Below are positions 2,638 to 13,891 of a stretch of DNA of 20,538 bases, piece after piece. The stretch covers positions 1 through 20,538 of the IMG/VR virus record IMGVR_UViG_3300021417_000055. One strand, 5' to 3'. The stretch comes from a virus. Position 1 is the stretch's first letter; every line of letters starts with the position of its first letter. The notes under the pieces are model-generated. The model saw only the letters and a program-made list of their open reading frames with translations. It was not told the origin of the DNA and made no database searches. Position numbers and translations under genes: made by a program.

Positions 2638-2685
2638 ATTGGTCGGTGTGAGAGGATTTGAACCTCCGACCCCTGACACCCCATG
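2638..2685. repeat. attL, 48-bp tRNA-Pro fragment
   Basis: This matches 13813-13860 base for base. It corresponds to the 3' part of tRNA-Pro(GGG), from the anticodon loop through CCA plus three bases. Identity stops at CCCCATG, after which the sequences diverge. It is a recombination scar and not a second tRNA gene, because the D-arm and 5' acceptor strand are missing. Confidence 0.93.
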
Positions 2686-2838
2686 CATGATTTTTACATC
2701 CTTACCTGTCATTAGATTTACTAAACCATCACTCCCCGCCCTACTCTAACCATATATAAATTATAGATTTTTGATGACACCATGCAGCTAGAGACACTTG
2801 TAGACAAGCAGGTGCTTATGGGTATCTTTTTGCCGTCC

Positions 2839-2890
2839 GTGCAACACAGGTGCAACATATTTCCAAATTTAAAGATAACTGGTGCAACAT
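2839..2890 (+). promoter_or_regulatory. Left integrase arm-site cluster, GTGCAACA(C/T) x3
   Basis: Three same-strand copies lie at 2839-2847 (ending C), 2850-2858 (T) and 2882-2890 (T). The same 9-mer occurs three times at the other end of the element. Repeats flanking the att core at both ends are the hallmark of arm-type sites bound by the N-terminal domain of tyrosine integrases. The third copy runs into the integrase start codon at 2889, so integrase binding could also repress its own gene. Confidence 0.7.
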
Positions 2891-4145
2891 GGAAACGATC
2901 AAAATCAAACTTACAGAATCAGTGATTAAAGGAGTCCCAACAGACGTAGAACGGATTACCGATACAGAAATAAATGGTTTTCACCTTCGTATTGGTAAAC
3001 CTTTAAAAGATGGAAGCAGGACCAAGAAATACTATCTCTACTACCGCTTAGGTGGCAGGGGGAGCAAAGCGGGTAATTATTTAATAGGCAGCACCAATAC
3101 AATAGATCTAAAAGACGCGCGTAAAAGGGCTAAAGATTTAATAGGCCAGGTTTCCAGAGGTATCGACATTTGTGGAGAAAAGCAAACTAATAAGCAGACT
3201 CAGACTAACCTTCACAGATCAGCAAAAGTTAGCGATCTGCTGGATGCTTTCGAGGGACACATAAAGATTCAGCGTAAAAGACCAGAAGAAGTCGTGAGAG
3301 CATTCAAGGCTGACGTTAGACCCACTATCGGTAAGTTAAGGCTTGCAGGTATTTCAAAGCAAGTAATCGTCGAAAAATGTTTGAATCCTATAATTAAGAG
3401 AGACGCATTGGTTCAAGCTAATAAAACCCTGTCGTTACTAAAACAGACTTTCCAATTTGGAGTAGAAACAGGACTAATTGAGCAGAACCCTTTAATTGGA
3501 ACCCGGCGACAAAATATTGGAGGCAAGGAAAAACCAAGATCGCGTAACTTAGCAAAGCAGGAACTAAAGTCATTCTTCACATGGTTGAATACATCAACTG
3601 CGAGTCTACAAGTAAGACAAGCATTAAAGTTACTTTTACTCACCGGTTGTAGAGCCCAAGAAATGACCTTAGCAAAGTGGAGCAATATAGATTTCAAAAA
3701 ACAACTCTGGACCTTCCCTGAATGTGACAGAAAAGGTAACAAGGGAGAAACCAAAAGTCATGTTGTGCCGATAACGCCAATGATGAAATCATCTTTATTA
3801 ACTCTGAAATCAGCTTATTCAGATTTAGGCTCAGACTATGTTTTTCCATCTACTGCAGGGAAAATCGGAATTGAGCCCATAGATAGATCAGCCTGTGCAA
3901 AGTTTTTACGCAGACGATTTGAGAACGACGAAATTAAGCTAGAAAAATTCGTACCCCACGATTTGCGCAGAACATTTCAAACTCTCTTAAGCAGTCTAGG
4001 TGTAGACGCTATTGTGTGCGAAAAGCTGTTAAGCCATGAATTACAAGGTATGCTCAAGATATATAACCAGTATGATTATATGAAAGAAAGAAAAGCCGCT
4101 TTAATAATGTGGGACAAATGGTTAACCGAACAAGGTATTCTGTGA
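2889..4145 (+). CDS. int: P4-type tyrosine integrase
   Basis: This site-specific recombinase of 418 aa catalyses integration and excision between the tRNA-Pro attB site and the satellite attP site. The N-terminal ~90 residues (TDTEINGFHLRIG, then a KKYYLYYRLGG region) match the DUF4102-type arm-binding domain of P4-like integrases. A core-binding helical domain follows. The catalytic set is complete: Arg255 (LLTGCRAQEM), His357 and Arg360 (HDLRRT), His383 (LSHE) and the nucleophile Tyr392 (IYNQYDY). I chose ATG 2889 over the upstream in-frame GTG at 2850. METIKIKLTE begins the conserved domain, and the longer start would translate through arm repeats. It lies about 200 bp inside attL, the normal place for an integrase. 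The next gene starts on its stop codon (TGATG). Confidence 0.95.
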   Translation: METIKIKLTESVIKGVPTDVERITDTEINGFHLRIGKPLKDGSRTKKYYLYYRLGGRGSKAGNYLIGSTNTIDLKDARKRAKDLIGQVSRGIDICGEKQTNKQTQTNLHRSAKVSDLLDAFEGHIKIQRKRPEEVVRAFKADVRPTIGKLRLAGISKQVIVEKCLNPIIKRDALVQANKTLSLLKQTFQFGVETGLIEQNPLIGTRRQNIGGKEKPRSRNLAKQELKSFFTWLNTSTASLQVRQALKLLLLTGCRAQEMTLAKWSNIDFKKQLWTFPECDRKGNKGETKSHVVPITPMMKSSLLTLKSAYSDLGSDYVFPSTAGKIGIEPIDRSACAKFLRRRFENDEIKLEKFVPHDLRRTFQTLLSSLGVDAIVCEKLLSHELQGMLKIYNQYDYMKERKAALIMWDKWLTEQGIL

Positions 4146-4732
4146 TGACGCATGATATAGACATGAAAGAAATCGTAAAAGCAGGCTACTTCGATAAAGA
4201 CGTTTCTTACTACGATAAACTTCAAAAGATTGTTGAAGCATCAAAAAAAGAATCACCTGCAGGCATAGAAATCCCGAACGATAGAATCCGTGCACTCGTA
4301 AAGCCAGTACCTGAAGAACGACAAATAGTTTTAAGTGAATTAATAAAGCTTAAAAATGCATTAAAAAAACAAATAAATACTCTTGAAAAAATAGGCGGTA
4401 ACAGCATAGCCGAGATTGTAAGGCAATATAAAGACTTGTCTTTTAACTCAAAAATAACACCAGAATCTTATCAGTTCGATAAGGAATTTGAACTTGAAGC
4501 AGTAGAAACTTTAATTTCTTTTATTAAAAGTCAATCATCCAAAAGAGATATACCATATTTTCTTATTGGAAAGACCGTCGAGTTGTATGACCATTATTGC
4601 CTGAATGTTCTTAAACAGAAAAAGCTGTTTAAAGCACCGAAACAACTGAAGTCACTGATAACTGAACTTACCGGTATTGAAGAGCCTGCATGCCATATAA
4701 ATGAATCAAGAAAAAAACTTAAAAATATTTAA
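4145..4732 (+). CDS. Hypothetical satellite protein coupled to the integrase
   Basis: The 195-aa protein is of no family I recognise. It is mostly alpha-helical and Lys/Glu-rich, with no signal peptide or membrane segment. Residues about 55-85 (RQIVLSELIKLKNALKKQ) could form a short coiled coil. The start at ATG 4145 overlaps the integrase stop (TGATG), which implies translational coupling. A longer version from 4109 would overlap int and is unlikely. Its place between int and alpA suggests a role in excision, integrase control or early satellite regulation, but that is position-based inference only. Confidence 0.7.
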   Translation: MTHDIDMKEIVKAGYFDKDVSYYDKLQKIVEASKKESPAGIEIPNDRIRALVKPVPEERQIVLSELIKLKNALKKQINTLEKIGGNSIAEIVRQYKDLSFNSKITPESYQFDKEFELEAVETLISFIKSQSSKRDIPYFLIGKTVELYDHYCLNVLKQKKLFKAPKQLKSLITELTGIEEPACHINESRKKLKNI

Positions 4733-4805
4733 AAGTTATTTCCTATGATCTCCGATTCTCAGATATAAGATGGGTATCGTCATCTATAAACACGAGGCGA
4801 TAACT

Positions 4806-5015
4806 ATGAACTTACTGACATCACAAGAAGCTGCAACATATCTAGGCTTCAAAGAAGCTACACTACGCAACAGTCGTTGCACATCAAAACTAGCAAACAT
4901 TCCAACACCGCGTTATCTCAAACTCGGAAACACTGTCCGTTACAAAAGAGAGGACTTAGATAACTGGCTAGACTCATTAAATGCATACGCTGTATGCCAA
5001 GGTGAGGAGGCTTAA
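4806..5015 (+). CDS. alpA: AlpA-like helix-turn-helix regulator/excisionase
   Basis: The 69-aa protein is a MerR/excisionase-type winged helix of the AlpA class. It shows LTSQEAATYLGF (first helix and turn), KEATLRNSR (recognition helix), then PRYLKLGNTVRYKREDLDNWL (wing and final helix). In P4-like elements and gram-negative PICIs, AlpA acts as activator and as recombination directionality factor. I chose ATG 4806, preceded by GAGGCG, over an ATG at 4770 that would add 12 unconserved residues. It ends 2 bp before the next gene, so it is co-transcribed with the replication genes. It is the likely switch between the integrated and excised states, possibly under helper-phage control. Confidence 0.85.
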   Translation: MNLLTSQEAATYLGFKEATLRNSRCTSKLANIPTPRYLKLGNTVRYKREDLDNWLDSLNAYAVCQGEEA

Positions 5016-5017
5016 TC

Positions 5018-5476
5018 ATGTCTAATTACATTGAAAACTTTCAACTAGCCGCTTCAGTTTTAAGAAACTTGAAGAAGAAAATAGCACAGCCTACCCCGGC
5101 CTTCTCTGAAGATTTCGAAGAATTATGTACTGACTTGAACCGAGGTTTAACCGGGCTCTTATCTACTTCAAAATTACTCGAAGTTTTACCGAACTTTAAA
5201 GCGGAAAATTCAAAGGATTACCGACTGGAAACCCTCTCAAGATTGTTAATCTTGGGTCACAACACTGAGGCCATTTTAAGTTATGAATTCCGGGATTATT
5301 CATTATTCAGACTGAAACAGTTGGCCACAAATATTCTAAAAGAACGCTCACCATGGATTAAAACCATTGACATAAATGAGCGATTTAGGCGATGGGAGAC
5401 GGAGCTTTACGAACTTAGATTGCTAGAACGTCTTATCTACGAAATTGGCTACATTGCGGAGGTCGATCATGTTTGA
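5018..5476 (+). CDS. Hypothetical satellite protein, 152 aa
   Basis: The protein is of unrecognised family, almost entirely helical by its residue pattern, soluble, with many Leu, Arg and Glu residues. A strong ribosome site (GAGGAGG, 7 nt before ATG 5018) overlaps the end of alpA. The 3' end overlaps the following gene by 8 bp. This tight packing between alpA and the primase gene indicates an early replication/regulation operon. No catalytic or DNA-binding motif is evident. Confidence 0.75.
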   Translation: MSNYIENFQLAASVLRNLKKKIAQPTPAFSEDFEELCTDLNRGLTGLLSTSKLLEVLPNFKAENSKDYRLETLSRLLILGHNTEAILSYEFRDYSLFRLKQLATNILKERSPWIKTIDINERFRRWETELYELRLLERLIYEIGYIAEVDHV

Positions 5477-5843
5477 TTTATTTAAACAAGCTAACGCAAT
5501 GATCATTGAAAACCCAGACAAACTTTTGAAGGTTGAGAGGGATTTCTTTTTACTCTTCCACAACAAGCGACTAATGATAAGAGGGCTCAAAGAGTTTGAG
5601 TCTAAAAAGTATTCTAATACCAGGCCGGAACCCTGTGCTGTTTTTGTCATGCCAATGAATCGTGAAAGGACGCGCTTTATGAGGCTGTACTGCAAAGCAG
5701 ACTTACAAACGTCATTATTCATTCGGTGTATCAGTGATGCAGCATCTTACATTCACCCGGAAGATAAATCCGGCAATGATTCTTTCGACCAATTTTTGGC
5801 AAGCTTAATTGAGCCCTTCACAGCCAGCACCTTGATCGACTAA
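5469..5843 (+). CDS. Hypothetical satellite protein, 124 aa
   Basis: The start at ATG 5469 (MFDLFKQANAM) is set by a clear GGAGG 7 nt upstream. An upstream in-frame start at 5445 would extend the overlap with the previous gene and lacks such a site. The protein is soluble with a basic patch (RTRFMRLYCKAD) and no family I recognise. The 8-bp overlap with the upstream gene and an 18-bp gap to the primase-helicase gene place it in the same operon. It may be a replication accessory protein; no motif proves this. Confidence 0.7.
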   Translation: MFDLFKQANAMIIENPDKLLKVERDFFLLFHNKRLMIRGLKEFESKKYSNTRPEPCAVFVMPMNRERTRFMRLYCKADLQTSLFIRCISDAASYIHPEDKSGNDSFDQFLASLIEPFTASTLID

Positions 5844-5861
5844 TAAAGATTGGAGTCCAAC

Positions 5862-7853
5862 ATGCAACCTAAAAGATCAGGTGGCCCTATGCCACCTGCT
5901 CTTCACTCTTTGTCCTTGAATCAGGGTTATCCAGAGGAATTAAAAGCTTTTAACCAATGGCTTTTATATCGCCTGCAATGGAACGAGAGTAAGAGCAAAT
6001 ACAATAAAATTCCTTCAACAATTAACAATGGGCGATTGATAAACGGCAGCAAAACCAACGAAGCGCACTGGATGAGTTTTGATACTGCAATACATCATCT
6101 TGAGCAAGGTTTAGGTGATGGACTTGGATTTTGTATAACGCCATACGATCCATTTCTATGTTTAGATTTTGACAAGTGTATTCAAGAGCCTTGGTGTTTT
6201 GAAGCCATTAAAAATTTTGATAGTGCTGCAGAATTATCTGTTTCAAAAGAAGGTTGTCATATTTTTATTGAAGCAGAAAAGCCCGGTGGAATGGGCACTA
6301 AAAGTAAGACCTTCCACAATAGCAAAGTTGAAATACTGGGAAACGGACAATTCGTTGCTCTCACCGGGGAGTTCAATGGAAAGCCTGTCGCAAACCGGCA
6401 ATCATTATTGCTGGAATTTGCCGCACCTTTGCAAAAACAGAAAGAAAAAATATCTGTTCAAGCAAAACAGTCTGAATGCTCAGAAACAGCAAGCAATGTT
6501 CTAGAGAAATTAAAACAAAGCAGATTTGCTGAGTCTTTTACCAAGCTGTTTGAAGGTTGCAATCTGTCAGATGATACCAGCGCTGATGACTTAGTATTCT
6601 GCAATTACGTAGCGTCAGTTGCTTCCGATCCTGTTGTGATAGATGTGATTTACCGGCAATCAAATCGATACCGGGATAAGTGGGACCAAAAACGAGGACA
6701 ACACACCTACGGCGAACTAACAATTGAAAAAGCCCTGAGTTCAGCAAATCCATTAATTAAACAGTCTGCTACTGAAGCGTTTGCAGGTATGGCTGTACCT
6801 CAACCGGTGCCTCCTTCCCCATCATCTAAACAAGGTTTTTCGTTCGATAAATTCGTTATGAATGAGCATATCGAGGAGCTGCAGAAGAAAGCGTTGGAGG
6901 ACAAATTTGTACTTCCTAAACTTGCAATATATGGACAACTGACAGTATTTTTCGCAGAACCCAATACAGGGAAAACTATATTAACGATTCATCAGATAAT
7001 AGAAAACATTCGCAGCGGTGAAATTGATGGTCACAATGTTTACTATCTAAATTGTGATGACACTTACAATGAGGGCCTTGTTAAAGCTAGGATTATGGAC
7101 GAATTTGGCATCAATTGTATTGTTCCCGATATAAATGGATTTAAGCTATCTGAATTTCCTGAGTATTTAGAAAAAATAGTCAACGAAGACTCTGCGACCG
7201 GTAAAATTATGGTTTTAGACACGCTTAAGAAATTCTCCGACATCATGAATAAAAAGAAGTCTACTATTTTTAATACGCTCGCCCGACGATTTACGCAGAA
7301 AGGAGGTACCCTCATTGCGCTTGCACACACTAATAAAAATAGAGCTGAAGATGGGAGTTTGATCGCGGCTGGCACGTCAGATGTTGTTGATGACTTTGAT
7401 TGTGCTTTTACTATTGATGTTCTTGAAACCAACGATTCTGACTTGAGGACGGTTCAATTTAAAAATATAAAACAAAGAGGAAATGTATCTCGCAAAGTCT
7501 CTTTTAGCTATTCCACAAGGGAGGGGATAAAATATCAAGAATTATTGGATAGCGTTACTCGTTTAGATGAGACAAAAACCCAGCAACGTGAGATTGAAGC
7601 GAAAGTTAAGTCTGATGCAGAGCTAATCAATATTATCTGCCAGAACATTAATAAAGGTAATGTAAAACGCACTGAATTGATAAACGCTTCACACAAAGAA
7701 AGTAAATCCTTTGCCAGCCGCAAAGACGTCGAACGAGTTCTTAACCAGTATACCGGTGATGATTACTCACAAGGTGATCGTTGGTTAGTCAAAATCGGGG
7801 ATAAAAATTCACACACCTATACGATATTAACTCCCAAACTCCCTACCCCCTAG
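5862..7853 (+). CDS. Satellite replication protein: primase-like domain plus RepA-type helicase
   Basis: The 663-aa protein has two apparent enzymatic parts. Residues about 25-190 resemble an archaeo-eukaryotic-type primase/polymerase module of phage and plasmid replicases: LLYRLQWNESKSKYNKIP, a metal-binding-type CLDFDKC, then HIFIEAEKPGG. Residues about 340-560 form a RecA-like ATPase of the RepA/AAA_25 class. They carry a Walker A EPNTGKT near residue 366, a Walker B GKIMVLDTL, and a sensor-type LIALAHTNKNR. The C-terminal ~90 residues look like a winged-helix tail that could bind an origin. ATG 5862 with GGAG upstream is preferred to TTG 5850. It is the last gene of the early operon and ends at a strong terminator. 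Family membership is clear in outline; the origin was not located. Confidence 0.85.
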   Translation: MQPKRSGGPMPPALHSLSLNQGYPEELKAFNQWLLYRLQWNESKSKYNKIPSTINNGRLINGSKTNEAHWMSFDTAIHHLEQGLGDGLGFCITPYDPFLCLDFDKCIQEPWCFEAIKNFDSAAELSVSKEGCHIFIEAEKPGGMGTKSKTFHNSKVEILGNGQFVALTGEFNGKPVANRQSLLLEFAAPLQKQKEKISVQAKQSECSETASNVLEKLKQSRFAESFTKLFEGCNLSDDTSADDLVFCNYVASVASDPVVIDVIYRQSNRYRDKWDQKRGQHTYGELTIEKALSSANPLIKQSATEAFAGMAVPQPVPPSPSSKQGFSFDKFVMNEHIEELQKKALEDKFVLPKLAIYGQLTVFFAEPNTGKTILTIHQIIENIRSGEIDGHNVYYLNCDDTYNEGLVKARIMDEFGINCIVPDINGFKLSEFPEYLEKIVNEDSATGKIMVLDTLKKFSDIMNKKKSTIFNTLARRFTQKGGTLIALAHTNKNRAEDGSLIAAGTSDVVDDFDCAFTIDVLETNDSDLRTVQFKNIKQRGNVSRKVSFSYSTREGIKYQELLDSVTRLDETKTQQREIEAKVKSDAELINIICQNINKGNVKRTELINASHKESKSFASRKDVERVLNQYTGDDYSQGDRWLVKIGDKNSHTYTILTPKLPTP

Positions 7854-7863
7854 AAACTTCCGA

Positions 7864-7906
7864 AACATCCCAAACACACGTGACATCTAAGTTTGGGATG
7901 TTTTTT
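7864..7906 (+). terminator. Strong intrinsic terminator ending the early operon
   Basis: A perfect 12-bp stem pairs AACATCCCAAAC at 7864-7875 with GTTTGGGATGTT at 7891-7902, followed by TTTTTT. It lies directly after the replication gene and separates the satellite core from the nuclease cassette. The rest of the gap to 8028 is AT-rich and probably holds the cassette promoter. Confidence 0.9.
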
Positions 7907-8028
7907 ATGTTTATGAAGTTTATTAGATTTTTAAGATTAATACGTTTACCATCACAGGTAATCATCAAAAATAATAATCGCATACAAAGTTGTGAGGCTA
8001 TAACTACCTAACTAGGGATGGATACCAT

Positions 8029-8970
8029 ATGAGATATTTTGCTGTCTTCATTACACTTCTAATTTTCTCTTCAAATGCTAACGCACTCAGATTAAAAGAT
8101 TGCAAACTCACGGAAAGCCAAGAACAAGCAAGCTTAGATGAACACATATATGGTGGCTCTTTAGACGATTCTAAGCTGTATGAACGACGAGCTTATGTTC
8201 TAGCTTACGATGACGCTAATTTAGTACCTAAATGGGCTGCTTGGCACGCTCAAAAATCTTATCGTGACACTCCTACTCGAAAGTCAAGATGGTCAAGTTT
8301 TAGAACCGACCCTGAAATAAGTACGGTCAAAGACGATGATTACGTTGGCTGGTACGACTCAGAGAAAAATTATGCAAGAGGCCATATAGTTCCGTACTAC
8401 ATATCGGGTGGAGATCGTGATCATGATGGTAAAAATGCATATTACGAAGATCAAAGTATTGAAGATGTTGATGACGCTTGCACAATTTATGAAGTAAATT
8501 CCATGTCAAATATTGCTCCGCAATACCACGACAAGTTTAATGGTGTAGGCGGTGGTTTATGGTATGCATTAGAAACAGACATTAGGGCATTAATCGATAA
8601 TGGCGCTTCATTTAATATTTATGCTGGAACTATTTTCTCAGCTAACACGCCCATTGAAAGAATTGGCGATAGAGACGACGAAGCAAGCACATGGAAGATT
8701 GGTGTACCACATGGATTTTTTAAAGTAGTAATCAATGATCAACGTGATGAAGCGGTTGCATTTATTTTCGATCATGCCAGCAATTTAGAAACAGGTTGCG
8801 ACTTGGCTAGTATATCTGTTAGATACCCTTCTGACTGCATACGTCCAATTGAAGAAGTAGAAAAGCTCACAGGATTAACATTTTTCAAAAAAATTGAAGG
8901 TCCTCTAAAACAACGGCTACGAACTACTAGTAAAAAAGAAACTTGGATTTCTTGGTTAAGTAAGTATTGA
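8029..8970 (+). CDS. Exported DNA/RNA non-specific endonuclease (NUC family)
   Basis: The 313-aa protein has a Sec signal peptide (MRYFAVFITLLIFSSNANA, cleavage after about residue 19), so the nuclease should act in the periplasm or outside. The beta-beta-alpha-metal NUC domain is recognisable: ERRAYVLAYDDANLVPKWAAW, then ARGHIVP with catalytic His119. SNIAPQ follows, with Asn161, and KFNGVGGGLW contains the likely metal ligand Asn171. The canonical DRGH motif reads ARGH here (Ala116), a change at a residue that helps catalysis in Serratia nuclease. A C-terminal extension of about 50 residues is basic. Four Cys residues in the mature part fit an exported protein. It lies 10 bp before the membrane coiled-coil gene, so the two are probably co-expressed. 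Plausible roles are degrading incoming phage DNA or nutrient scavenging; the satellite context favours the former. Confidence 0.85.
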   Translation: MRYFAVFITLLIFSSNANALRLKDCKLTESQEQASLDEHIYGGSLDDSKLYERRAYVLAYDDANLVPKWAAWHAQKSYRDTPTRKSRWSSFRTDPEISTVKDDDYVGWYDSEKNYARGHIVPYYISGGDRDHDGKNAYYEDQSIEDVDDACTIYEVNSMSNIAPQYHDKFNGVGGGLWYALETDIRALIDNGASFNIYAGTIFSANTPIERIGDRDDEASTWKIGVPHGFFKVVINDQRDEAVAFIFDHASNLETGCDLASISVRYPSDCIRPIEEVEKLTGLTFFKKIEGPLKQRLRTTSKKETWISWLSKY

Positions 8971-8980
8971 GATTAATAAA

Positions 8981-10183
8981 ATGAGTGCTGGTTTCACAGA
9001 TACGATTCAAAACTTTTTAAAAAGTGCATCAGATAGAATAAACAACCCATTTATTTTTAGTTTTTGCGTGAGCTTTTTAATTGTTCACTTTGATGCATTT
9101 TTATATTTAATTTTAAGCGACGATTATGTAAACGAAAGAATAAGAGTCTTTTATGAATTACTTGGTAAAAACGAAAAAACTCTTCAAATATCCTCAACCC
9201 TTGACTCTATTTTCTTACCATTAATCCTTGCTTCGGCGTACACTTTCGGATGGCCATACATTGATAAAATAATAGAATTATTTCGAGCAAAATCAGGCAT
9301 ATATCTCAATGATAAAATTTCAGACATTCTAAAAACGAAAACATATTCATACGAAGACGTTGAGAAATTAATCGAACAAAAAGATACAGCAATAAAAAGA
9401 ACGGTTGAACAAGAAGCAACCATAGATAACAACACCCAAACACTCAGCCGAAATAGACAGTTAATTGCTGAAAGAGATGAACAGGTCGAAAGTCTTAAAG
9501 CTGACAATGAACAGATTAAATCTAAGCTTAATTCGAATTCTGACAGAATATCTATATTAATGAAGAAAAATGGCGAATTATTAGATAACAACAAAAGGTT
9601 AACTGAAATAGCCAGCGACTATGAAAAGAAAAACTTGAAAGTTTTTGATGATATTGGAAGGTTAAAAAAAGAGTTAGAAATAGAAAAGGAAAGAGCAATT
9701 CTAAATCACTCAATACCTTTTGAGTTTCCAAACGAAAAATTTTCTCCAAAAGAAAGTTCTAACACTGTAGAACTTATGGAACACGCGATTAAAATCATAA
9801 GAAACATATTTATCAGAAGTGTCGGAATATTTATTTTTAAAACTCAAAAAGAGCCACTTATAAGAGAGTTCTTCATAGAGAATCTTCTAAACCTGTCGCA
9901 GGAGACTTTAGATAAGGAATTTCCAAAAGGTGACTATATGCGTGATTATTCTTGGGAACTTATGGAAGAAACAGTTCCAAAATTCATCGTCTATTCCACT
10001 CGAAAATTCATGAGTGAGCGAGCCATCAATAATGCGAATAATATTACTCTAGTAAAGAATCATATAGATAGGAGTTTAAAATTAATTGAAAGCGTACCTT
10101 TAGTTGATGTTTTGGAATATATAAATAAATGCATTAATTTTGATAATTATAGTAACTCCCAGTCATCCCCTGATAGTGACTGA
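8981..10183 (+). CDS. Membrane-anchored coiled-coil protein of unknown function
   Basis: The 400-aa protein has two N-terminal hydrophobic segments (about 22-46 and 74-92). They are introduced by DRINNPFIFSF, a pattern I associate with uncharacterised membrane proteins of accessory regions. A long charged coiled coil spans about 120-245, with regular Leu/Ile spacing (EQVESLKADNEQIKSKL). A helical C-terminal domain (about 250-385) follows. No enzymatic motif is evident. It follows the nuclease gene by 10 bp, though its ribosome site is weak, which suggests coupling to the upstream gene. Its 3' end overlaps the oppositely oriented small-terminase gene by 37 bp. With the nuclease it could form a two-gene defence or exclusion unit, the coiled coil acting as sensor or scaffold at the inner membrane. 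This is inference; I do not recognise the family. Confidence 0.75.
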   Translation: MSAGFTDTIQNFLKSASDRINNPFIFSFCVSFLIVHFDAFLYLILSDDYVNERIRVFYELLGKNEKTLQISSTLDSIFLPLILASAYTFGWPYIDKIIELFRAKSGIYLNDKISDILKTKTYSYEDVEKLIEQKDTAIKRTVEQEATIDNNTQTLSRNRQLIAERDEQVESLKADNEQIKSKLNSNSDRISILMKKNGELLDNNKRLTEIASDYEKKNLKVFDDIGRLKKELEIEKERAILNHSIPFEFPNEKFSPKESSNTVELMEHAIKIIRNIFIRSVGIFIFKTQKEPLIREFFIENLLNLSQETLDKEFPKGDYMRDYSWELMEETVPKFIVYSTRKFMSERAINNANNITLVKNHIDRSLKLIESVPLVDVLEYINKCINFDNYSNSQSSPDSD

Positions 10184-10509
10184 CCAGATAGCTCAACACC
10201 ACGGCTAGCAGGGCTCATTTTAAACTGTGATAGATAATGTTTAACTTGGGCCTGAGACTCTTTTAGCAACTCAAATGAGGGATTCCGTTTTCTAACGATA
10301 TGACCGCGATCACCAGACACCTCAACATGAATACCGTTTTCCTTTAAATCTTCCCGGCATTCTTCCACTGTCGCGAGATTGCAGGCAAGCATACCAAGAG
10401 CATAATAATCGATACTTTGAACCGGTGTTCCGCGTTCTTGCAACACAGTTAAGAGCTTACGCCAGTAGCGCTTTTCTAATGTCGTTTTAACGTAATCAGG
10501 GGCTTTCAT
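10147..10509 (-). CDS. terS: Phage terminase small subunit, P27 family
   Basis: The 120-aa protein fits the P27 small-terminase pattern: a tryptophan-containing first helix (RYWRKLLTVL), a middle helix after SIDYYALGMLACNL, a G/R-rich strand, NPSFELLKESQAQVKHYL, and a closing SPASRGVEL resembling the family's GLtPasR ending. Small terminases recognise the packaging site on DNA and recruit the large subunit. ATG 10509 is preceded by AAGAGG. It is the last gene of the leftward morphogenesis operon. A large terminase would normally follow, but none is present. The partner would therefore be a helper-phage motor, or a host-encoded one elsewhere. Confidence 0.8.
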   Translation of the reverse strand: MKAPDYVKTTLEKRYWRKLLTVLQERGTPVQSIDYYALGMLACNLATVEECREDLKENGIHVEVSGDRGHIVRKRNPSFELLKESQAQVKHYLSQFKMSPASRGVELSGQSLSGDDWELL

Positions 10510-10594
10510 AGCGGCCTCTTAAAGATGGTGGGGAATAAATGCCGGTCCAATTTGGGTATAAACGACCAAAGCGGGGATGGTCGAGTGTTCTTGA

Positions 10595-11800
10595 TTATTC
10601 ATCAACCTCCCCCCCGTTGTGTTCAACCTGGCCTTTTTGAATCCATGACTGAGAATACTCATCACCACCTTCTCTTGGCGCTAAATTCTCTGCTCTTCTG
10701 CATTCATTGGGATTCATGATGCCATTGCGAATGGCTGTATCGTAGACTTCAAAGCGTTCAGCCGTAGAGCCACGTAACAGGTCTTTGGTCTCAAATTCAA
10801 TGTTAATCCTGAGACTATTTCTTTCCGAAACGAGACAATCATTCAGGGCACTTTGTATATTTGTGAGCCATGGACGTAGGGATTGAGACAGAAATGAACG
10901 TTGGGCCTCACTGTGATTGTTGAATGTACTGTGTGAGTAATCCATCAAAAAGATAGGACTCAGCTTAAACATACGAGCTACATCAACAACACTGAAGTTA
11001 CGGCTCTCTAACCATTCAGCATCGACATTACTGAGACTAATACTCTGCCATTTGAGACCATTTTCAAGAATTGGCGTTTTACCTACATTCTTTGACCCAC
11101 TGAATTTACTATTCCATTCGTCACTAAGACGCTTAATAGCATTACCCTTGTCACTAAACTCATTGTCAGTAGTTAAAATGCCTGAAGGTCTGGCTGAGTT
11201 TTTAAATGTTACAGCTCCGAATTCCTGTTGAGCCAGTCCCAAACCGATAGACTCACGACATACTTGGATAGGGCTTTTACCGGTTATGCCATCATCACTG
11301 TGATATTTGATATGTAAGATCTGCTCTTGAAGCAAGTTTTGAGTATCGCCATTGTCAAAATCAACCTGATAACCAATCCGCTTCGTTGATAGCTTTTTGA
11401 TTATCACAGAGTCAGGGTGAAGCCAGTGTAAACCTGCCACTCTGCCAGCCCTGTCATAGTCGATATAAGCGTAACCATTACCTCTTAATAGGATTGAACG
11501 CATTAAGGCAATCATGAAATCATAGCTTGTCTGGTAGCCGTTTGGTTTACGGTTTAACAGCTTATCCAAATAATGCTCCTGGACACGCTCTCGTTCATTG
11601 TTGTCACGCTTTTGATAGATATGAATAGGCAGGCTGGCTATCGCCTCAGCAATCGTAGAGACAGCGCAATACACAGCTGGTAAAGACTGTGCCGTTTCAG
11701 CGTTAACTGCTTTGCCAGAAGACGTTTGTACACCAAAGCCAAGGGACTGTAGTAAGCTCCAATTGCTATTAGGATTGCTGCGTTTAAATAACCCGAACAT
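10595..11800 (-). CDS. Phage portal protein, HK97 family
   Basis: The 401-aa protein forms the dodecameric ring at one capsid vertex, through which DNA enters and leaves. Family features are plain: AVYCAVSTIAEAIASLPIHIY near the N-terminus, a GNGYAYIDYD strand, LHPDSV, and a clip/stem region around SNVDAEWLESRNFSVVDVARMFKLSP. A C-terminal RNGIMNPNECRRAENLAP completes the pattern. Its length is normal for the family. ATG 11800 has a perfect AGGAGG site and overlaps the protease stop codon by one base (TAATG), so the two are translationally coupled. An 85-bp gap separates it from terS. Confidence 0.95.
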   Translation of the reverse strand: MFGLFKRSNPNSNWSLLQSLGFGVQTSSGKAVNAETAQSLPAVYCAVSTIAEAIASLPIHIYQKRDNNERERVQEHYLDKLLNRKPNGYQTSYDFMIALMRSILLRGNGYAYIDYDRAGRVAGLHWLHPDSVIIKKLSTKRIGYQVDFDNGDTQNLLQEQILHIKYHSDDGITGKSPIQVCRESIGLGLAQQEFGAVTFKNSARPSGILTTDNEFSDKGNAIKRLSDEWNSKFSGSKNVGKTPILENGLKWQSISLSNVDAEWLESRNFSVVDVARMFKLSPIFLMDYSHSTFNNHSEAQRSFLSQSLRPWLTNIQSALNDCLVSERNSLRINIEFETKDLLRGSTAERFEVYDTAIRNGIMNPNECRRAENLAPREGGDEYSQSWIQKGQVEHNGGEVDE

Positions 11801-12330
11801 TACAACACCTCCTGCAATGCGAAATATTGACGGAATGCTGAAAGCCGGGGCTGGTTATTCTGAAGATTGCGTAAAGCTACTTCAGTATTTCGATAAGCTG
11901 GATTACTTGTAATAGTGATTTCATGCAGTACGGCTTTATTCACCGTTCTGAGAGTAAGAGTTTTTGTGTAATCCCATGAATCACCACCAGCAGGAACAGT
12001 AAAACCAAACGACATTCCGCTAATGTCACCACGCTGTATTGATACCATTAGATCGCGAGCAGCTTGTGTATCAGGCGGGTCAATTTCAATAGTGATACCG
12101 GTGCTATCTTCGGCAATGCGAAGTGTACCGGACTGAGTACGGCCCAACAGTAAATGAGGTATATGCTCTACTAAGGCTCGAATATCACCAGATACAGACT
12201 CTTTAAAAGCACCGGTGGCGATAACCTCAGTAAAGCCCCCTAAATTCTCAGACTGGGCACCATAAATGATAGGCCGACCGACGATCTTTCGACCATCGAC
12301 CGACACACTGGATATTGAACGACATTCCAT
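11800..12330 (-). CDS. Prohead maturation protease, HK97 family
   Basis: The 176-aa serine protease (peptidase family U35/S78) cleaves the capsid scaffold during head maturation. It has the expected order: RALVEHIPHLLLGRT with the catalytic-position His, a TQAARDLMVSIQRGD helix, GMSFGF with the nucleophile Ser, and HEITITSNPAYRNTEV near the end. The usual NHD around the His reads EHI, a minor departure. ATG 12330 follows the capsid gene by 8 bp with an AGGTGA ribosome site. The order here, capsid then protease then portal, is reversed relative to classical HK97 phages. Confidence 0.93.
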   Translation of the reverse strand: MECRSISSVSVDGRKIVGRPIIYGAQSENLGGFTEVIATGAFKESVSGDIRALVEHIPHLLLGRTQSGTLRIAEDSTGITIEIDPPDTQAARDLMVSIQRGDISGMSFGFTVPAGGDSWDYTKTLTLRTVNKAVLHEITITSNPAYRNTEVALRNLQNNQPRLSAFRQYFALQEVL

Positions 12331-12338
12331 AGAATCAC

Positions 12339-13496
12339 CTATGCAGCCGCTTTAAGGATCTTGATAGCGTTACTATCAACCAGACCGCCACCAACATAAC
12401 GAGTTGCCAGCATTTTAACGAAACCGGGTTTAGTAATGTTGTCACGAATTAAACGAGTGCCAGTGCTGTGGTCGATAACGTAATATGCCAGAGCCAGATC
12501 ACCAAATACCACTTCATCATCTGGTACCTGGTCTGAAATCACTACCGGTTTACCAAGTAACGTAGTCGGCTGACCTTCTTGAACACTATCACGCCAAATA
12601 TACTCATCCTGATTGTTTTTCAGTTTACGTAGGGTCATTGCCATTGTGTCTGAAAGATAGAACTTACCGCCCGGACGATAAGCGATAGCAAGACTGTGAT
12701 AGAAAGTAATCAGATCATCAAAATCGATTACCCCTGATGCTGCGCTGGTAACTTCCTGCAACTGACCAAATGTGCGAGAACTATCATTACTTGCAGAGCG
12801 AGTATAAGTAAGTAAACCTTTTGGTTTCTTGGTGCCATCACCGTTCCAGAATGCCGCCTCTTCTTTCAGTACAGACTCTGCAGTGATTTCTGATGATAAC
12901 CAGCCAGCAACGTCAAAGTCTGACCAATCCAGCAATTCCTGTGTGGTTTGAGGATATGCATAGAGGCTATTCACGCTAATAGCTACTTCCTGCAGTGAAC
13001 TGGTATTAGTCTCATTCCGGGTATCAGATTCAGCCGCCCATTCAGTAGTAGTGCCACCAGTGGAGACCAGCTTTTTATAGGTTTCAGTGCCAATACTTTT
13101 AACAGTAGCATTCTGACGAAATACAGAACGCTCTCGTAGCTGTTTATGAATTGTTTTGTCTACAGATGGAATGACAGTGTAACCACCATCAGAATCAGAG
13201 CCCGCAGATAAAGAACGGCGATCACCTGTCACAACAAAAGCACGTAGCTCACTATTACTAGGTGCATTGATGTCATTACCCGGCATGGTGCCAATCAGAG
13301 AGCGTTCTTCCTCAGCTAACAATTCATGATGCTCAATAGCAGCATTAATTTGTTCTATCTGATTTCGGTATTCACTGAGACTACGGCTTTCTTGCTCAGT
13401 CAGATTGCGCTTTTCTGTCTCAGAACCAGTGAGAATTGCTTTTGATTTCTGCACCAGTTCGGCTTTTTGTTGGCGTAATTCAAGTAAGTGTTTCAT
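12339..13496 (-). CDS. Major capsid protein, HK97 fold
   Basis: The 385-aa protein has the same length as HK97 gp5. Residues 1 to about 70 (MKHLLELRQQKAELVQKSK and the following Gln/Glu-rich helices) form the delta scaffold that the adjacent protease would remove. The GGYTVIP start of the mature shell domain is near residue 103. Family signatures include TTEWAAES, AFWNGDGTKKPKGLL and LLGKPVVISDQVP. ATG 13496 with GAGG upstream is preferred to an upstream in-frame start at 13565, which would add a hydrophobic, unrelated stretch from AT-rich leader DNA. Being the first gene of the leftward operon, it is probably the most highly expressed. The satellite thus makes its own shell instead of reusing helper capsids. 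Confidence 0.95.
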   Translation of the reverse strand: MKHLLELRQQKAELVQKSKAILTGSETEKRNLTEQESRSLSEYRNQIEQINAAIEHHELLAEEERSLIGTMPGNDINAPSNSELRAFVVTGDRRSLSAGSDSDGGYTVIPSVDKTIHKQLRERSVFRQNATVKSIGTETYKKLVSTGGTTTEWAAESDTRNETNTSSLQEVAISVNSLYAYPQTTQELLDWSDFDVAGWLSSEITAESVLKEEAAFWNGDGTKKPKGLLTYTRSASNDSSRTFGQLQEVTSAASGVIDFDDLITFYHSLAIAYRPGGKFYLSDTMAMTLRKLKNNQDEYIWRDSVQEGQPTTLLGKPVVISDQVPDDEVVFGDLALAYYVIDHSTGTRLIRDNITKPGFVKMLATRYVGGGLVDSNAIKILKAAA

Positions 13497-13508
13497 TGGA
13501 ACCTCATA

Positions 13509-13603
13509 TTTGCATAAAAAATGAATAACAATGCAAAATATGGGATATTTTGAATATATATGCAATTATTATTTGATAAAACCACATAAATATGCAAAAT
13601 TAT
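13509..13603 (-). promoter_or_regulatory. AT-rich leader of the capsid operon with repeated ATGCAA sites
   Basis: Three plus-strand ATGCAA copies begin at 13531, 13560 and 13592, about 30 bp apart, each followed by an AT-rich tract. An inverted TTTGCAT lies at 13509-13515. On the minus strand these read TTGCAT, close to a -35 box. The array lies just upstream of the capsid start and may be the operon promoter with sites for an activator such as AlpA or a helper protein. No single promoter can be fixed by eye. Confidence 0.4.
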
Positions 13604-13654
13604 GAATAGAAGAATTCATTTCTTCAATCCATCGGACTCCTCAAAGCGTTAAGG

Positions 13655-13686
13655 GCCTCAACAGTGGGAACTGTTGGGGCTTTTTT
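13655..13686 (+). terminator. Plus-strand intrinsic terminator inside attR
   Basis: A 10-bp stem with one G-T wobble pairs GCCTCAACAG (13655-13664) with CTGTTGGGGC (13671-13680), followed by TTTTTT. No plus-strand protein gene leads into it. It could end a small RNA from the capsid leader, or insulate the island from readthrough. Confidence 0.75.
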
Positions 13687-13718
13687 ATTTCCACGATAAA
13701 TTCTAATGCAAATAAACG

Positions 13719-13767
13719 GTGCAACATACGTGCAACACAGATTAAAAATACTGTATTGGTGCAACAT
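13719..13767 (+). promoter_or_regulatory. Right integrase arm-site cluster, GTGCAACA(C/T) x3
   Basis: Copies lie at 13719-13727 (ending T), 13730-13738 (C) and 13759-13767 (T), all on the plus strand. The 11-bp spacing of the first pair repeats that at the left end. They lie 46-94 bp from the att core and are probable integrase-binding arms for attR. Confidence 0.7.
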
Positions 13768-13812
13768 ACGGGAAATTTAGATTTGATATAAACTATTGAT
13801 ATTGGGGGAGGA

Positions 13813-13860
13813 ATTGGTCGGTGTGAGAGGATTTGAACCTCCGACCCCTGACACCCCATG
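13813..13860. repeat. attR core, 48-bp repeat within tRNA-Pro
   Basis: This is identical to 2638-2685. It covers the tRNA from the anticodon loop to CCA plus three downstream bases. The intact tRNA is reconstituted on this side, so integration does not destroy the gene. Confidence 0.93.
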
Positions 13861-13891
13861 ACAGTGCGCTACCAGGCTGCGCTACACACCG
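13815..13891 (-). tRNA. proL: tRNA-Pro (anticodon GGG)
   Basis: This is a 77-nt cloverleaf on the minus strand with genome-encoded CCA. The acceptor CGGTGTG pairs with CACACCG. The D-arm is GCGCAGCCTGGTAGCGC, the anticodon loop ATGGGGT gives anticodon GGG, and the T-arm GGAGGTTCAAATCCTCT is canonical. The anticodon stem has a U-U mismatch (CTGTC/GTCAG), as in E. coli proL. It is the integration site of the satellite. The 140 bp upstream to 14031 presumably hold its promoter. Confidence 0.96.

Follow-up and report, generated by a model that had tools for sequence, protein, structure and literature searches.

We analysed a 20,538-bp IMG/VR contig (IMGVR_UViG_3300021417_000055, hereafter the window, with no wider genome beyond it) and found at positions 2638-13860 an element, hereafter the island, which is probably an active, integrated phage satellite, as judged from its sequence and its relatives. 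It carries capsid, protease, portal and small terminase (TerS) genes of its own, and it is related to the capsid-forming PICIs (cf-PICIs) but reduced. Satellites of its clade would, in our judgement rather more probably than otherwise, build their own prohead and choose their DNA with their own TerS, and rely on a visiting helper phage for the motor, neck and tail. We see even chances that they form a distinct marine clade, supplying DNA-free proheads and DNA choice for use with a helper's motor, neck and tail, in which the portal is an exchangeable adaptor to different helpers. Chances are equally balanced that such a clade is intermediate between cf-PICIs, which borrow tails, and classical PICIs, which borrow the whole particle.

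An island integrated at tRNA-Pro(GGG)

The island has a length of 11.2 kb (a 14-kb average is reported; PMC10803314) and is bounded by identical 48-bp repeats, the only direct repeat of at least 18 nt within the window. Its features are given below, where L-numbers (L001 to L210) stand for compared loci or contigs; G-numbers used later stand for compared genomes.

2638-2685: attL, 48-bp direct repeat, copy of the tRNA-Pro 3' half, exact copy of 13813-13860
2850-4145, + strand: tyrosine integrase (PF00589, 6.8e-22; phrog_1, 4e-57)
4109-4732, + strand: 207-aa protein after the integrase gene (no family match; conserved in L011)
4770-5015, + strand: AlpA-like HTH regulator/excisionase (PF12728, 3e-8; phrog_66)
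5018-5476, + strand: early protein (no family match; conserved in L011)
5445-5843, + strand: early protein (no family match; conserved in L011)
5850-7853, + strand: primase-polymerase/helicase (NrS-1 HBD, 1e-13; phrog_1829, 6e-57; PDB primases 6a9w/7ola)
8029-8970, + strand: cargo, Endonuclease_NS, DNA/RNA non-specific endonuclease (PF01223, 8e-26; Serratia nuclease 1g8t)
8981-10183, + strand: cargo, 400-aa protein with a coiled-coil-like stretch (phrog_4780, 9e-14)
10147-10509, - strand: TerS, Terminase_4 (PF05119, 5e-13; phrog_83)
10560-10615, - strand: candidate cos site, GGGGGGG-N-ATCCCCGCTTTGGTCGTTT, overlapping the portal 3' end (conserved in L001, L010 and L011)
10595-11800, - strand: portal, Phage_portal (PF04860, 5e-104)
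11800-12330, - strand: prohead protease, S78 (PF04586, 6e-37)
12339-13565, - strand: major capsid protein (MCP), HK97 Phage_capsid (PF05065, 2e-66)
13813-13860: attR, 48-bp repeat inside tRNA-Pro
13815-13891, - strand: tRNA-Pro(GGG), intact (ARAGORN)

A single exact copy of the 48-bp sequence was found at locus L119 of genome G075, which GTDB places in one family with Aliiglaciecola lipolytica. The right-hand neighbours mrp, dcd, GH97 and tRNA-Pro are common to G075 and the contig at ~71-77% DNA identity, and a 55-nt stretch of the tRNA 3' flank in L119 recurs at 100% identity to the left of attL. This flank match together with the single 48-bp copy indicates that the G075 site is an empty attB. 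The host is likely a marine Alteromonadaceae bacterium; we call the family likely only, since the host-flank comparison was limited to Alteromonadaceae genomes. Near-identical copies of the island (~93-97% DNA identity) were found in three other contigs, the left att junction being present in L011, the right one in L001 and the head genes in L010. A sequence-only reading of the same DNA had pointed to exact 48-bp repeats, integration at tRNA-Pro(GGG) and a marine-type gammaproteobacterial host, all of which agree with these results, and the empty site and related islands that it proposed to look for were recovered, in a related Alteromonadaceae genome and, at the same att site, in other metagenome contigs.

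Within the left flank (1-2637) lie two fragments that are missing from the empty site L119: a phage gene (phrog_4756) represented by its 3' part, and a C-terminal piece with a match to phrog_1847. Situated beside attL, they are probably left over from a different mobile element.

The left arm of the island, on the + strand, runs from the integrase through the 207-aa ORF, the AlpA-type HTH protein, two further ORFs and the primase-helicase, which has NrS-1-type primase and AAA_25 domains, to the cargo. The cargo endonuclease has a signal-peptide-like N-terminus, and its dS to L011 is 0.74, far above that of most neighbouring genes, which suggests exchange by recombination. The 400-aa cargo protein also varies between copies, with 30% identity over 182 aa at the equivalent position of L011, and the cargo slot adjoining TerS holds different genes in the island, L011 and L010, a pattern that would be in keeping with active elements. 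No known defence systems were found among the island cargo by PADLOC. In L010, a transposase-like ORF (3455-4588, ISAs1-like by eye) adjoins the cargo slot.

The head module ends at the small terminase

The right arm, on the - strand and convergent with the early genes, is a closed head operon in which MCP, protease, portal and TerS are tightly packed: the portal-TerS interval measures 85 bp, and TerS abuts the cargo. All core frames are open, and alignment places the true capsid start probably at 13496 (M24). There are no tail, lysis or TerL genes within the island. The TerL family PF03354 was absent from the whole 20.5-kb record in a profile search; tblastn with TerL and connector queries against the contig returned TerS only, and no relics of TerL, HNH or connectors were detectable in it by tblastn. 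The island is thus without HNH and head-tail connectors as well as TerL, the first two absences being unmentioned in the sequence-only reading. That reading named the integrase, AlpA and primase-helicase (which have the Pfam and phrog matches listed above), the four head genes (which have Pfam matches), and the lack of tail and lysis genes within the island, and it stands on all these points.

Its label of cf-PICI holds in one part: the island is an integrated, probably active satellite with its own capsid genes. It fails in the other, in that TerL, connectors and HNH are lacking. The claim that cf-PICIs carry the gene set of the island and take only tails from helpers finds no support in published cf-PICIs, which encode head-tail connectors, HNH and both terminases in addition to capsid, protease and portal (PMC10690885), or in the non-marine relatives, nearly all of which do likewise. 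In our profile census over the related loci, non-marine loci whose sequence extends over 4 kb past the portal contained TerL in 101/103 cases and at least one connector in 101/103. The gene order in vB_KppS-Ant and Pmp8 (Escherichia phage and Pasteurella phage records) is capsid-protease-portal-closure-adaptor-HNH-TerS-TerL. With three defining cf-PICI features missing, the island should not be filed as a cf-PICI, and if it is packaged, more than tails must be borrowed. It would probably work like a cf-PICI with a borrowed TerL and neck in addition.

A graded series of reduced satellites in the marine group

The profile census found TerL and connectors absent from the island, L011, L016, L017, L018, L019, L126 and L128, and from the shorter contigs L005, L006 and L009; L206, L207 and L208 lack them as well. 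About a dozen other marine/Alteromonadaceae satellites, at tRNA-Val and tRNA-Leu, have capsid, protease and portal, usually with TerS, and lack TerL; together with the island lineage, the TerL-less satellites sit at tRNA-Pro, tRNA-Val and tRNA-Leu, and the relatives measure 10.0-10.8 kb. The last gene of the module in this group is a TerS of the Terminase_4 type, an assignment that Pfam confirms in ten cases. HNH is retained in L002, L008, L009 and L018, and TerL in L124, L127 and L012. The relatives therefore include the full set, sets without connectors, without TerL, and without TerL and HNH, and finally L207, which keeps capsid, protease and portal and is further reduced, with no recognisable TerS (L207:7582-10520).

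The marine capsids form a supported group (96/94) whose best named matches are cf-PICI-type records, with an unsure rooting by distant phages. L124, which has TerS, TerL and HNH, is the nearest capsid relative of the island and pairs with it as sister in the capsid tree (100/100). Because this sister bears TerL, the island lineage probably lost it, and TerL losses elsewhere in the marine group were probably separate. A genome scan with the capsid protein alone as query gave no match. In some marine relatives (L004:4011-4340 and L127:1205-1534), a connector-like (Ad1) gene now lies between capsid and protease, having moved there.

The reduced module is maintained under purifying selection

We compared dN/dS between the island and L011/L001. 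The MCP showed 0-1 amino-acid changes against 19-21 synonymous ones; portal, protease and TerS had values of 0.03-0.09 (TerS 0.04), the integrase 0.05 and AlpA 0. The head genes overall (dN/dS 0-0.09) are under purifying selection, indicating that the head module has been maintained as protein after TerL loss. Open frames, purifying selection and near-identical copies at the same att site also support the earlier suggestion, made from the intact core frames, that the island may still be active.

These values bear on the reading that the island is a decayed cf-PICI or prophage remnant, immobile after deletion of TerL, HNH and connectors. Genes are indeed missing relative to L124, and the left flank carries remnants of another mobile element. 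However, the remaining frames are intact and strongly selected, the att repeats are exact, the same reduced set recurs in many relatives at three tRNA sites, and near-identical copies with exchanged cargo exist in other metagenome contigs, so that we consider decay unlikely. Another reading takes the island for an ordinary cf-PICI that needs helper tails only and whose TerL and connectors are too divergent to recognise. Its capsid, protease and portal share 43-48% identity with those of vB_KppS-Ant and Pmp8, as this reading would have it, but the closed operon, with its 85-bp portal-TerS interval and TerS directly against the cargo, leaves it little room, and the early ORFs lacking a family match encode 132, 152 and 207 aa, far below TerL size; we regard it as improbable. 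Just as improbable, in our view, is that the island capsid proteins co-assemble or interfere with the helper capsid and that mixed particles carry the DNA. The missing connectors and TerL would fit this, as would L207 with only capsid, protease and portal and no TerS, whereas the island's own portal and prohead protease, kept under selection, point to complete proheads.

A cos-like site beside TerS

The HNH-TerS gap of cf-PICIs contains a G-run, a spacer, a C-rich block and a T-rich block. We built a profile from 75 non-marine gaps only and searched 398 kb with it. All eleven of its best matches fell in the gap preceding TerS. Eight belong to TerL-less satellites, two to the TerL-bearing L012 and L127, and one to the Alteromonadaceae prophage L210. 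Most TerL-less relatives thus keep a cos-like gap upstream of TerS, being among the top matches of the profile, and position and conservation suggest that this gap is cos.

The TerS-portal gap of the island lineage was undetected by this profile. It shares GGGGGG-N-ATCCCCGYTTTNNTCGTTT with L208, where the motif lies just upstream of TerS; the motif was first spotted by eye, and the alignment score of the two gaps was reached in 3/5000 shuffle pairs. The TerS proteins of L208 and the island are 35-37% identical. Minus its last three bases, the island-type pattern occurred among 397 Alteromonadaceae genomes only in L208.

The search for a helper and a breakpoint at the portal

A search for the helper by the island-type pattern returned only island copies and L208. 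The L016-type pattern was found in 4/397 Alteromonadaceae genomes, all of them satellite carriers, and in IMG/VR in one satellite only and in no helper phage; no helper was thus identified by packaging-site patterns in IMG/VR or the 397 genomes. Blastn of the gaps against phages gave nothing useful. We also searched the host genomes, some of them drafts, for PF03354 as the sole TerL family, with two prophage-bearing genomes positive as controls. It was absent from six carrier genomes (G001, G002, G003, G169, G203 and G232) and gave a single weak match in G004, so that 6/7 carriers are without an HK97-type TerL. From this, a resident HK97-type prophage does not appear to be the usual TerL lender; a visiting phage, perhaps a virulent one, is more likely. 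A tape-measure family search of the host genomes found no prophage tails.

The closest named TerS proteins to that of the island are from Vibrio and Aeromonas siphophages (33-37% identity), which is a lead only. An origin of the island TerS from virulent siphophages of these genera was considered and dropped, since a relationship to the TerS of L124, a locus with TerL, is detectable as well.

L207 and L208 are 93% identical in MCP and 82% in protease, and only 38% in portal. Their DNA similarity ends at the portal start, where the breakpoint is observed directly. Such a breakpoint may mark the retuning of an element to the motor or neck of another helper.

Proposed cycle and comparison with known satellites

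According to the borrowed-motor reading that we prefer, helper infection would lead to excision and replication of the island, and its capsid, protease and portal would form its own prohead. TerS would then bind the packaging site beside its own gene and recruit the helper TerL, which would dock on the island portal and fill the head. Helper neck proteins and tails would complete the particle, and helper lysis would release it. The interface with the helper would lie at the portal and not at the head-tail joint. In cf-PICIs, satellite and helper parts join between the head connectors and the tail.

The cf-PICIs vB_KppS-Ant and Pmp8 resemble the island in integrase, AlpA-type regulator, primase, related capsid, protease and portal, a TerS of the same Pfam family and, as would apply to the island, helper tails. 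Unlike it, they have a large terminase, head closure, head-tail adaptor and HNH, and their head genes are not convergent with the early genes. Classical PICIs such as SaPIs use their own TerS to redirect the helper TerL (for SaPI TerS, PMC10690885), the logic proposed here for the island; SaPIs remodel the helper capsid, whereas the island has capsid, protease and portal genes of its own. PICMIs, which are marine satellites of virulent phages, share with the island marine gammaproteobacterial hosts and possibly a virulent helper. They lack capsid and packaging genes, their integration site is near fis, and full-size heads of the helper carry them as concatemers (PMC10803314); the island differs in its capsid genes and in its tRNA-Pro site instead of fis. 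The cf-PISP of Vibrio crassostreae is marine and capsid-forming like the island, but it is a plasmid with terminases, HNH, adaptor and closure (PMC13230959). We found no paper on a capsid-encoding Alteromonas phage satellite in the openly readable literature, and a prior description is possible.

If this reading is true, what a satellite borrows can change one gene at a time, from tails alone to motor, neck and tail together, and the motor of one element can fill a head made by another. The graded series makes gain and loss of helper independence testable in culturable hosts (Aliiglaciecola, Paraglaciecola and Alteromonas); cultured strains with a TerL-less relative include Aliiglaciecola lipolytica E3 and Paraglaciecola chathamensis S18K6.

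In the Alteromonas sp. LOR satellite, a 620-aa tape-measure-like gene (L019:13532-15394) lies directly after TerS and is the one tail gene identified there. Its product might set the length of the helper tail.
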